A stretch of DNA of 32,723 nucleotides from Candidatus Moraniibacteriota bacterium (GTDB lineage Bacteria; Patescibacteriota; Minisyncoccia; Moranbacterales; UBA9337). Within the stretch, counting starts at the first letter, position 1, and each line of letters opens with the position of its first letter. Under the pieces are notes generated by a model. The model was not told the DNA's origin, did no database searches, and saw nothing but the letters and a program-made list of their open reading frames with translations. This document shows, in pieces, positions 29,137 to 32,723 of the stretch. Position numbers and translations under genes: made by a program. The stretch spans positions 5,314 through 38,036 of the forward strand of contig DNVQ01000031.1 in NCBI GenBank assembly GCA_003507475.1. The letters run 5' to 3'.

Positions 29137-29298
29137 ATGAATACAATAAAAGAATTTTTTAATAATAAAAATAATATCTTAATAAGTCTCGTTTTGTTTT
29201 TATTGCCGATGCTTTTTTCTTCCTTGGGATATAATCGCCTGAGCAAGGTCTTATACTTGGTGGCAGGGTACCTCACCAAAAGATTAAGTAAACGTTAA
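29137..29298 (+). CDS. 53-residue membrane protein coupled to msrAB
   Basis: It starts at an ATG in a very AT-rich leader and stops at TAA 29296-29298, sharing one base with the msrAB ATG (TAATG), the same coupling seen between comEC genes. The product begins [13 protein letters not shown], has one strong hydrophobic helix at about 14-31 ([17 protein letters not shown]) and a second moderately hydrophobic helix with a basic end ([17 protein letters not shown]). It may be a membrane companion of the exported methionine sulfoxide reductase, inferred from coupling only. Confidence 0.5.
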
Positions 29299-30452
29299 TG
29301 ATTGGGAGAAATAAATCGAGATTATTTGGCTTTTTAATCGTTGGAGCTTTTCTTTTTTTATCATTATTAATTTTTCAAAATAATTCATCCACTAACAATA
29401 ATTATATGAAAAATTCAAGTAATAAAATCGGAACAAAAACAGCCATATTCGCAGGCGGATGTTTTTGGTGTGTTGAGGCAGATTTTGAAAAACTTAAAGG
29501 AATTTCCAATGTAATTTCGGGATATTCTGGTGGGCACACTTCAAATCCTAATTATCAAAATTATGCTCAAGGAGGTCATCGGGAAGTAGTGGAGGTAACC
29601 TATGATCCCAAGGAAACTACTTATAGGAATTTAGTTGAGCACATTATTCTTTATAGCGACCCAACTGATGCGGGCGGTTCTTTTGGCGATAGAGGAGTTC
29701 AATATGCGCCAGCTATTTATTATGAAAATGAAGAGGAAAAAAATATCGCTCACATGGTCATTGATGAAGTTAATGCAAAGAAAATTTATGATAAGTCGAT
29801 AGTAATAAGTGTTTTGCCACGTATGGAATTTTGGCCAGCTGAGGAATATCATCAAGATTATTACAAAAATAATCCTATTCGCTACAATATTTACAAAAAA
29901 GCATCTGGCAGAGAATCTTTTGTTAAAAAACATAATCAAAAAGCTTCCGAAAAGGGAATATTTTCTCAAGACACATTGCCCGTAGCAATGCCTGAGAATT
30001 TAGATTTTAAGGATTATCAGAAACCTCCAAAAGAGATTCTTCAAAAAAAATTAACTCCCTTGGAATATGAAGTTACCCAAGAAAAAGGCACTGAGAAGCC
30101 TTTTGAAAATGAATATAATGCAAATAAAGCGGAAGGTATTTATGTCGACAGGATTTCGGGTGAAGTGCTTTTTTCTTCGCGGGACAAGTACGACTCTGGC
30201 ACCGGCTGGCCTTCTTTTACTCAACCTGTCTTAAGTGAAAACGTGACTTTGCATAAAGACAAGAAACTTTTATCCAACCGTATCGAAGTTCGCTCCCGTT
30301 ACGGAGATTCTCATTTGGGTCATATTTTTGATGATGGTCCCAAAGATAAAGGCGGAAAACGTTATTGTATGAATTCAGCCTCTTTGCTTTTTATCCCCAA
30401 GGAAGAAATGGAAATGAAGGGTTACGGAAAATATCTTTATTTGTTTAAATAA
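29298..30452 (+). CDS. msrAB: Membrane-anchored MsrA-MsrB fusion (peptide methionine sulfoxide reductase)
   Basis: A 384-residue bifunctional repair enzyme. Residues 8-27 are a signal anchor ([17 protein letters not shown]), placing the catalytic part outside the cytoplasm. MsrA domain (about 46-205): catalytic C55 in [41 protein letters not shown] and [12 protein letters not shown]. MsrB domain (about 248-384): [25 protein letters not shown] and catalytic C357 in RYCMNSASL. The MsrB zinc CxxC pairs are absent and the usual resolving Cys is Thr (SGTGWPSF), as in some other MsrBs. It reduces both S and R epimers of methionine sulfoxide in exported proteins; the electron donor is not evident. 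Coupled to the 53-aa gene. Confidence 0.95.
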
Positions 30453-30507: not shown

Positions 30508-30753
30508 ATGTATTATCTTTATATCCTTGAATGTGCAGATAAAACTCTCTACACTGGAATTACCACTAATTTGGAGCGCAGAGTCGTTGAACATAATAGC
30601 AGTAAATTGGGAGCAAAATATACCGCTTCAAGACGGCCGGTCAAACTAATTTTTTCTAAAAAATTTAAAGATAGATCAGATGCATCAATAGAAGAAGCGC
30701 GCATTAAAAAATTAAACAGAATTCAAAAATTAGAATTGATAAAAAATATTTGA
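30508..30753 (+). CDS. GIY-YIG nuclease family protein (YhbQ/UPF0213-like)
   Basis: An 81-residue single-domain GIY-YIG protein: YYLYILECADKTLYTGITTN (GIY and YIG equivalents), R24-R25 in LERRVVEHN with H29, KYTASRRPVKLIF, and the C-terminal helix with EARIKKLNR. This is the whole YhbQ-like module. Related free-standing proteins bind or nick DNA, but most have no defined role. TATAAT at 30467-30472 may serve as -10; no Shine-Dalgarno is seen. Confidence 0.88.
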   Translation: MYYLYILECADKTLYTGITTNLERRVVEHNSSKLGAKYTASRRPVKLIFSKKFKDRSDASIEEARIKKLNRIQKLELIKNI

Positions 30754-30884: not shown

Positions 30885-32576
30885 ATGAGTATTCAAAATA
30901 AAATTAGGTTGAAATTTGCGTTAGTCATTCTTCTAACCATCACTTCAATAACAATAGCTTATCCGAAAACGGTGAAATTTATACCGCCAGTTTTCGAATT
31001 TGTTAATAAAGCTAAAATTAATTTAGGTTTGGATTTGCAAGGAGGCTACAGATTGGAATATGAGGTTGATACTTCTAAGGTAGAAGAGGATAAGAAGGAG
31101 GATGCAGTTCAAGCTGCTCAAGATGTTTTGGAGAGAAAAGTAAATGCTACCGGAACCAGTGAGGCTTTAATACAAACAGTGGCTGGCACTCCTCCTAGAA
31201 TAATTATCGAATATCCAGGAGCAAAAAGCGCTGAAGATTTAAAAAGTTTAATTAAGGAAACCCCTTATTTGATTTTCAAAGAAGAAAAGAACGAAGAGGA
31301 ACAAAAAGCAGAAAAACAAAAATTTAATGAATTACTTGCTCCAAATAACGAGAAGTCTCGTCAATCTGCGGCAGAAACTTTGCAAAAAATTAAAGAAGGC
31401 GGGGATTTCAATGCTTTGGCAAAAGAATTTAACCAAGATCCTGGTTCAAAAGATAAAGACGGTGTTTTGGATTTTGTAAAAAAAGGTGATTTGGTCCCTC
31501 AATTTGACGAAGCTTTATTTAATGGAAATCTAAAAAATGGAGAATATTATCCGGAATTGGTAGAAACTGATTATGGTTGGCATATTATCAAAAAACTCGA
31601 AGAAAAAGGTGAGGGAGAGAATAGGGAGATTAAAGCTCAACATATTTTACTTTCCAAGCAAACGGCTGAAATGTATCGAGATTATTGGATTTATAAAGAT
31701 ACTGAATTGACAGGGAAGAATCTAAAAGATACAGCTGTTGTGTTTACTGATCAAGGAGTGTCTGAACCGCAAGTACAGTTAAAATTTGATGGTGATGGAG
31801 CGAGGATTTTTGCCGAAATTACAAAGAGAAACATGGGGAAACAAGTAGCAATTTATTTGGATGATGAAATAATTAGCGCTCCAACAGTTCAAGCGGAAAT
31901 AACGGCTGGAGAAGCGGTGATTACCGGAAACTTTACCGTTGATGAGGCGAAGGAGCTAAAAAGAAGATTAAATGAAGGAGCTCTTCCTGTGCCGATAAAA
32001 TTAGTTTCTCAGCAAAGCATAGGCGCATCTTTAGGAAAAGTTTCTTTGGAAAAAAGTTTGAAAGCAGGGGTGGCGGGACTGGCAATTGTGGGAATTTTTA
32101 TGATTTTATATTATAGATTTTTTGGATTTATCGCGACCATTGCACTTTTTATTTATTCAGCTATGATGATTAGCGTTTTTAAACTTTCAGGAGTGGTTTC
32201 TGATTGGCCCATAACTTTAACTCTTTCAGGAATTGCCGGGTTCATCCTTTCTATTGGAATGGCGGTGGATGCCAATGTTTTAATTTTTGAAAGAATCAAA
32301 GAGGAATTAAGAGATGGACGCAATTTAGGGAGCGCTATCAATGAGGGATTTCGCAGGGCTTGGTCTAGTATCCGAGATGGAAATTATTCTACTATAATTA
32401 CTTCGATGATTTTAATTTGGGTAGGAACAGGATTTGTGAAAGGCTTTGCGGTAATATTGACAATCGGAGTTGTTTTGTCCATGTTTACCGCTATTGTATT
32501 GGTAAAAATAATACTGCAAGCTATCGTGGGAGAATGGATATCCAAGAGACTTTGGTTAGTAGTAAGAAAAAAATAA
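30885..32576 (+). CDS. secD: Protein translocase subunit SecD with an inserted parvulin-like domain
   Basis: SecD, with SecF, uses the proton gradient to pull exported proteins out of SecYEG. The ATG at 30885 is chosen over a TTG at 30807 because it begins the N-terminal membrane helix directly. Of 563 residues: helix about 10-28, GLDLQGGYRLEYEVD, then part of the P1 domain. About residues 136-262 are an insertion absent from ordinary SecD: a parvulin/PpiC-like segment (KEGGDFNALAKEF, LVPQF 203-207, YGWHII with H233) followed by KAQHILL (H253), which is normally the first strand. SecD resumes at TELTGKNLKDTAVVF, with six helices including GMAVDANVLIFERIKEEL. secF starts 10 bases downstream. 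Confidence 0.93.
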   Translation: MSIQNKIRLKFALVILLTITSITIAYPKTVKFIPPVFEFVNKAKINLGLDLQGGYRLEYEVDTSKVEEDKKEDAVQAAQDVLERKVNATGTSEALIQTVAGTPPRIIIEYPGAKSAEDLKSLIKETPYLIFKEEKNEEEQKAEKQKFNELLAPNNEKSRQSAAETLQKIKEGGDFNALAKEFNQDPGSKDKDGVLDFVKKGDLVPQFDEALFNGNLKNGEYYPELVETDYGWHIIKKLEEKGEGENREIKAQHILLSKQTAEMYRDYWIYKDTELTGKNLKDTAVVFTDQGVSEPQVQLKFDGDGARIFAEITKRNMGKQVAIYLDDEIISAPTVQAEITAGEAVITGNFTVDEAKELKRRLNEGALPVPIKLVSQQSIGASLGKVSLEKSLKAGVAGLAIVGIFMILYYRFFGFIATIALFIYSAMMISVFKLSGVVSDWPITLTLSGIAGFILSIGMAVDANVLIFERIKEELRDGRNLGSAINEGFRRAWSSIRDGNYSTIITSMILIWVGTGFVKGFAVILTIGVVLSMFTAIVLVKIILQAIVGEWISKRLWLVVRKK

Positions 32577-32586
32577 TTTTAAAATA

Positions 32587-32723
32587 ATGATAAACATAAT
32601 TGGGAAAAGAAAATATACATATATCGTTTCAAGCATATTGGTAGTCGCTAGTGTTTTTATTTTATTTTTTTGGGGATTAAAATTGGGAATCGATTTTAAA
32701 GGCGGGACATTGATGGAGGTTAA
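32587..32723 (+). CDS. secF: Protein translocase subunit SecF, 5' part
   Basis: The start lies 10 bases after the secD stop. The 45 codons in the window give a basic start (MINIIGKRKYTYIV), the first membrane helix (about 12-30) and the family signature GLKLGIDFKGGTLMEV, which begins the P1-like loop. It continues past the window edge. Confidence 0.93.
   Translation, partial: MINIIGKRKYTYIVSSILVVASVFILFFWGLKLGIDFKGGTLMEV

Follow-up and report, generated by a model that had tools for sequence, protein, structure and literature searches.

The stretch of DNA analysed here, which we call the window, comprises 32,723 nucleotides from an ultra-small Candidatus Moraniibacteriota bacterium (contig DNVQ01000031.1 of assembly GCA_003507475.1). 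Near its end lies secD, whose product is part of the Sec translocation motor. The P1 domain of this SecD carries an inserted parvulin, the first strand of which follows the core instead of preceding it, and this swapped parvulin is real and conserved. The features of the gene are listed below in window coordinates; residue conservation here and throughout was counted in 120 listed of the 379 homologues found, the window's own SecD included.

30885-32576, forward strand: secD, 563 amino acids (TIGR01129, 398.5 bits against a curated cut-off of 244.4)
31110-31289, forward strand: N-terminal part of the P1 base (Pfam SecD_1st, PF21760, E = 1.3e-9), ending in the strand TPYLIFKE
about 31287-31703, forward strand: the whole insert, 139 amino acids, replacing a shorter loop (from alignment with insert-free SecDs; modelled alone)
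31344-31604, forward strand: parvulin core, helix 1 to strand 4
31437-31439, forward strand: codon of D185 (Asp in 120/120 homologues)
31581-31583, forward strand: codon of H233, the GWH histidine of strand 4 (His in 119/120)
31626-31655, forward strand: moved strand 1 (EIKAQHILLS), after strand 4 (a model of strand 1 from canonical parvulins gives it 20.7 bits)
31641-31643, forward strand: codon of H253, the strand-1 active-site histidine (His in 118/120)
31674-31991, forward strand: P1 head subdomain (PF22599, E = 5.8e-32)

Besides exceeding the curated TIGR01129 cut-off, the protein resembles SecD and SecDF (TIGR01129; T. thermophilus SecDF, 3aqp) in having a P1 base and head, a GG motif and a C-terminal membrane domain (PF22599, PF07549 and PF02355 for the last three) and in the adjacent secF. 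SecDF chains also head the Foldseek list. The ATG at 30885 is a likelier start than the upstream TTG of the listed open reading frame (ORF). The protein differs from 3aqp in its parvulin insert of 139 residues, placed where the base meets the head.

The insert lies between the base strand TPYLIFKE and the head (PF22599), where insert-free SecDs have a shorter variable loop, of about 30-55 residues in seven aligned examples. Pfam matches Rotamase_3 (PF13616; E = 3e-18, 66.9 bits against a curated cut-off of 22.5) to SecD residues 153-239 and Rotamase (PF00639; E = 2.9e-15, 57.5 bits against 21.7) to residues 154-235, both numbered from the second residue. These parvulin matches, together with the shorter loop of insert-free SecDs, rule out that the insert is ordinary P1 sequence. 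The first-pass annotation had located parvulin sequence features in P1 at 31290-31670, and they are present there, in residues 136-262 of 563. The place it gave stands, but its size of 125 residues does not: the swapped unit spans about 31335-31676, within an insert of 139 residues.

From helix 1 to strand 4, in its active-site residues and in its predicted fold, the insert is like PpiC, PrsA and SurA (PF00639, PF13616); unlike in those proteins, strand 1 comes after strand 4 and the domain sits in a membrane motor. Both Pfam alignments begin late, at profile position 32 of 116 for Rotamase_3 and 15 of 97 for Rotamase, which indicates that strand 1 is absent from the front of the core. Coverage of a further profile, A2, to its last positions was tried as a marker of permutation and dropped, because tandem canonical parvulins give the same result: core 1 of E. 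coli SurA aligns to A2 at 4-104, since the strand 1 of the next domain comes directly after it. We therefore scored both flanks of each core with a strand-1 model, built from 25 segments upstream of the core in canonical parvulins from records of other phyla. Under this model, the 99th percentile of the scores of 875 shuffled segments is 4.28 bits.

In the window's SecD, the downstream segment EIKAQHILLSKQ scores 20.7 bits, whereas the upstream flank has no strand-1 match, its best segment reaching -6.4 bits. The canonical order, with strand 1 before helix 1, is thus not found. Core and strand are swapped and no second copy of the strand lies in front, as in a circular permutant, with the rearrangement scoring described below as a caveat. 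Aligned with PpiC from the Protein Data Bank (PDB; 2m08), the insert matches in two parts whose order is exchanged, as is typical of permutation, the strand piece alone being weak (4.9 bits). The proposal of the first-pass annotation that the first strand had been moved behind the last, giving a permuted parvulin, is supported by this alignment and by the scores of the two flanks.

The same order recurs in other SecDs with a single insert. Strand 1 was detected downstream only in 59 of 61 such sequences and on neither side in the remaining two (L162 and L165); these 61 are the 63 so labelled minus L118 and L128, and six of the 59 duplicate another sequence. In L118 and L128, also patescibacterial SecDs, this P1 site is occupied by about 120-130 acidic, low-complexity residues in which no parvulin match was found, although insert length had labelled both as single. 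In L048, a SecD with undetermined bases that was excluded from the tree, both flanks score (7.8 and 15.3 bits); at the 1% level per segment, one or two chance hits of this kind are expected.

AlphaFold2 predicts a parvulin fold for the insert alone, with a mean confidence (pLDDT) of 95.1 and a predicted TM score (pTM) of 0.86. Residues E248-257 form a strand in this model, joined to strand 4 by a six-residue turn. The model superposes on a solved peptidyl-prolyl isomerase (PPIase; 8hm4, 8hm4_B) at 1.8 Å over 103 residues, the moved strand included, and its residues 17-125 superpose on residues 269-471 of a chain in the PpiD-YfgM structure (8zht, by VIA-align) at 3.2 Å over 98 residues. Strand order in the model and the superposition on 8hm4_B give indirect, though good, support to a predicted placement of the moved strand in the strand-1 slot of the parvulin sheet.

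The active-site histidine pair and Phe, noted at first pass as retained, are kept in nearly all homologues: beside H233 and H253, F212 is conserved in 120/120 and F207 is Phe in 109/120. D185 presumably corresponds to the active-site Cys/Asp of parvulins. The insert has the histidine pair, Asp/Cys and Phe, which presumably match the active-site positions of Pin1 and PrsA.

Within the window's order, the insert profile matches 106 of 110 genomes, 99 of them at E <= 3e-16; these are profile matches whose identity as SecD was partly checked. The frames of the 99 measure 559-731 amino acids in 92 cases, 242-498 in six and 877 in one, and 93 of the matches extend to profile position 103 or beyond. 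Named relatives with the insert are mostly Moranbacteria, and further titles include Komeili-, Buchanan-, Kerfeld-, Kuenen- and Uhrbacteria, Microgenomatus and Paceibacter. One insert-bearing SecD sits in a record titled Lysobacteraceae, probably through a binning error. The insert, which the first-pass annotation proposed to look for in SecD homologues of Patescibacteria, is thus present in this order and in other lineages. In a sample of the phylum, the profile matched 172 of 379 genomes, while SecD was matched in 322 (294 over the cut-off). None of the 172 belongs to the window's class outside its order, yet the sample holds 29 such genomes with a SecD match (one weak).

Longer inserts occupy the same site. 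Among 40 fetched places, chosen mostly for long frames, 32 (L143, L145-L161, L163, L164, L166-L176 and L178) are SecD or SecDF frames from many patescibacterial families with an insert of 234-410 residues at this P1 position. In 21 of these frames two parvulin cores were detected, in the rest one, core 1 often being degenerate. Strand 1 precedes the last core in 31 of them, and in five it also follows that core.

Parvulins outside SecD show both strand orders. Of 61 stand-alone patescibacterial frames, 40 have strand 1 on the downstream side alone, 19 have it on the upstream side alone and none has both; in the remaining two (L233 and L239) it went undetected because the end of strand 4 had been set wrongly, and it lies downstream by eye. 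This sample is non-random: 21 frames come from the best 30 matches of a profile that favours the permuted order, and 40 were hand-picked from two parts of the table. One of the 40 downstream-only frames (L106) begins at a contig end, so that its upstream flank is cut off. Many of the frames have a similar C-terminal tail (FxxWL) among the tails printed, and the same kind of protein therefore occurs in both orders. Stand-alone foldases with strand 1 downstream only were also found in five records that carry the titles of Acidobacteria or of acidobacterial families (L052, L053, L062, L065 and L075) and in one without a title (L066); L053, L065 and L075, read whole, have one core each by eye.

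The genome itself has one other parvulin, a PrsA-like ORF of 373 amino acids (L001) with no strand 1 in front. Aligned with 98 relatives (33 printed), its strand 1 follows strand 4 and has Gln replacing His, so that of the two parvulins only that of SecD has both active-site histidines. The strand-1 model scores neither flank of L001, L181 or L182, which were kept out of the 61. Two FKBP-type matches and one cyclophilin also occur in the genome, and SecD is therefore not its sole holder of a prolyl isomerase.

A possible route to the permuted order is suggested by family f67, where two-core SecDs surround the single-insert SecDs L162 and L165 in the SecD tree (support 99-100). The tree of cores joins the core of L162 and L165 to core 1 of these neighbours (support 92), and their last strand resembles, by eye, the strand that follows core 2. 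Loss of the middle strand-plus-core would yield exactly the L162/L165 form, which shows how a tandem can give a permuted single domain. In tandem parvulins, a core would have come to pair with strand 1 of the next repeat, and in-register loss of one repeat would then have left one core with a trailing strand 1. Given these intermediates, permuted domains of this kind probably arose from tandem parvulins, and the domain of the window's SecD may have done so too.

The trees bear on a different origin, in which the permuted unit came into SecD ready-made from a stand-alone permuted foldase and not from tandem repeats within SecD. We place this somewhat short of an even chance; it concerns origin alone and is compatible with the functional explanation that we favour below. 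The phylum sample is rich in stand-alone permuted foldases, but in the core tree the SecD cores of the window's order fall, with weak support, beside those of other single-insert SecDs and apart from the stand-alone permuted proteins. Most branches of that tree are weak: it is based on 86 columns, and 8 of its 167 inner branches are starred. A tree of SecD without the insert (FastTree, 131 rows, 376 columns) requires 11 changes among none, single and tandem, labels that were assigned from insert length.

SecDF pulls from outside through swings of its P1 head, the substrate-binding part, and the membrane-bound parvulin PpiD crosslinks to Asp-359 of that head (PMC7793623). The authors of that article consider it conceivable that PpiD captures a chain and passes it to the P1 head. 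Like PpiD-YfgM at the Sec translocon, the insert would place a parvulin at the exit, where PpiD is periplasmic and, in E. coli, contacts the P1 head of SecD; unlike the insert, PpiD is a separate, unfused membrane protein. By this analogy, the SecD parvulin would most likely be a covalent counterpart of PpiD, and a single molecule appears to unite pulling with folding.

The best overall explanation, to which we assign a probability of about 0.75, is that a permuted parvulin of normal fold sits at the base-head junction of P1 and acts as a probable isomerase or peptide holder that aids the pulled chain. The order of the parts is shown by the sequence, and the fold is predicted to be normal, with strand 1 supplied from the C-terminal side through the short turn after strand 4. 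Since the active-site residues are of the PrsA/PpiC type, the insert probably works as a prolyl isomerase and holds peptides. Beside the mobile head, it would grip the chain emerging from SecY, isomerise its proline bonds or delay its misfolding, and hinder back-sliding during swings of the proton-driven head. Fusion at this junction would make a PpiD-like hand-over intramolecular.

Several observations weigh against this explanation. Scoring of rearranged strands with three Pfam models gave a mixed result: with strand 1 returned to the front, Rotamase_3 gained 9.4 bits (1.7 for a shuffled strand), but Rotamase gained only 2.3 (against 3.6 with the shuffled strand) and Rotamase_2 gained 1.9 (against 1.5). 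Placing the P1 strand TPYLIFKE in front also produced gains, of 4.7, 5.8 and 1.9 bits for Rotamase_3, Rotamase and Rotamase_2. The neighbours of the moved strand in the predicted sheet are deduced from strand order and from the 8hm4 superposition. H253 is replaced in two homologues, by Gln in P0012 and by Asp in P0085, the latter also lacking H233. Finally, the importance of PpiD's own parvulin domain has been questioned, as a second article notes (PMC9643414).

This last point also speaks for an alternative that we consider unlikely, in which the domain is permuted and folded but non-catalytic, a holdase or rigid spacer beside the P1 head. It would fit, too, with the absence of the usual motifs from core 1 of many two-core SecDs and with the Gln of L001 at the strand-1 His position (by alignment). 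A mere spacer, however, needs none of the residues that the listed SecDs keep (D185 and F212 in 120/120, H233 in 119/120 and H253 in 118/120).

The gains with TPYLIFKE in two of the three Pfam models (4.7 and 5.8 bits), and its position before the core, speak for a domain that is not permuted, in which TPYLIFKE would take the place of strand 1 in the usual order and the HIL strand would serve as a linker to the head. This is very improbable: TPYLIFKE is also present in insert-free SecDs and scores at most -6.4 bits in the strand-1 model, while the downstream segment carries the conserved His and 8hm4 superposes through the moved strand. Least probable is a strand-swapped dimer in which the moved strand completes the parvulin of an adjacent SecD molecule, an arrangement compatible with strand order alone but disfavoured by the six-residue turn of the model and by the confident single-chain prediction.

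Two database entries also come close to the permuted parvulin in SecD. The PDB may already contain a strand-shifted parvulin in 8hm3/8hm4, a two-core, SurA-like PPIase whose source, judging from the entry title (BfUbb), is presumably Bacteroides, because the HIL strand after its core 1 superposes on the moved strand. Unlike the insert, it is a two-core chaperone separate from SecD, with an extra degenerate strand (VEVQIITQ) before core 1. The NCBIfam family NF009585 (PRK13024.1-5 SecDF, 993 amino acids) may hold a similar insert, since the window's SecD aligns with it across the insert at almost equal length (query 63-547 on 165-648). That family is a fused SecDF, however, and the window's SecD, at 317 bits, falls far under its cut-off of 1037. 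Neither a SecD-parvulin fusion nor a permuted parvulin was found in the titles and abstract openings of the papers listed by searches of the open literature, subscription journals lying mostly outside these searches.

The gene that follows secD is its partner in the motor:

32587-32723, forward strand: start of secF, truncated by the window end (TIGR00966 matches here and beyond the window)

The frame of this secF (L259, G000:C10:37800-38750) is split just past the window at two undetermined bases (NN). As these sit at the break, the split is probably an assembly gap and the gene itself not broken. Before secD, an ORF at 29298-30452 looks by eye like methionine sulfoxide reductases A and B fused into one protein, with a membrane anchor at the N-terminus, and it is followed by a small, GIY-YIG-like ORF (also by eye) at 30508-30753.

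Neither the mechanism by which SecDF pulls nor the way in which chains are received outside is settled. That P1 and a parvulin are naturally fused, in nearly the whole order and in other lineages, argues for the P1 head as a place where a parvulin belongs and offers a single-chain model of the crosslinked PpiD-SecD contact. Canonical, tandem and permuted forms also provide a natural series for the evolution of circular permutation by repeat gain and loss. We lean slightly towards a broader view: strand-shifted parvulins would form a topological class that is widespread yet unrecognised and has its origin in tandem repeats, and the building of this class into the patescibacterial Sec motor would have made P1 both puller and foldase. 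If this is true, the phylum displays the full path from canonical single through tandem to permuted single parvulins, both free and in SecD.
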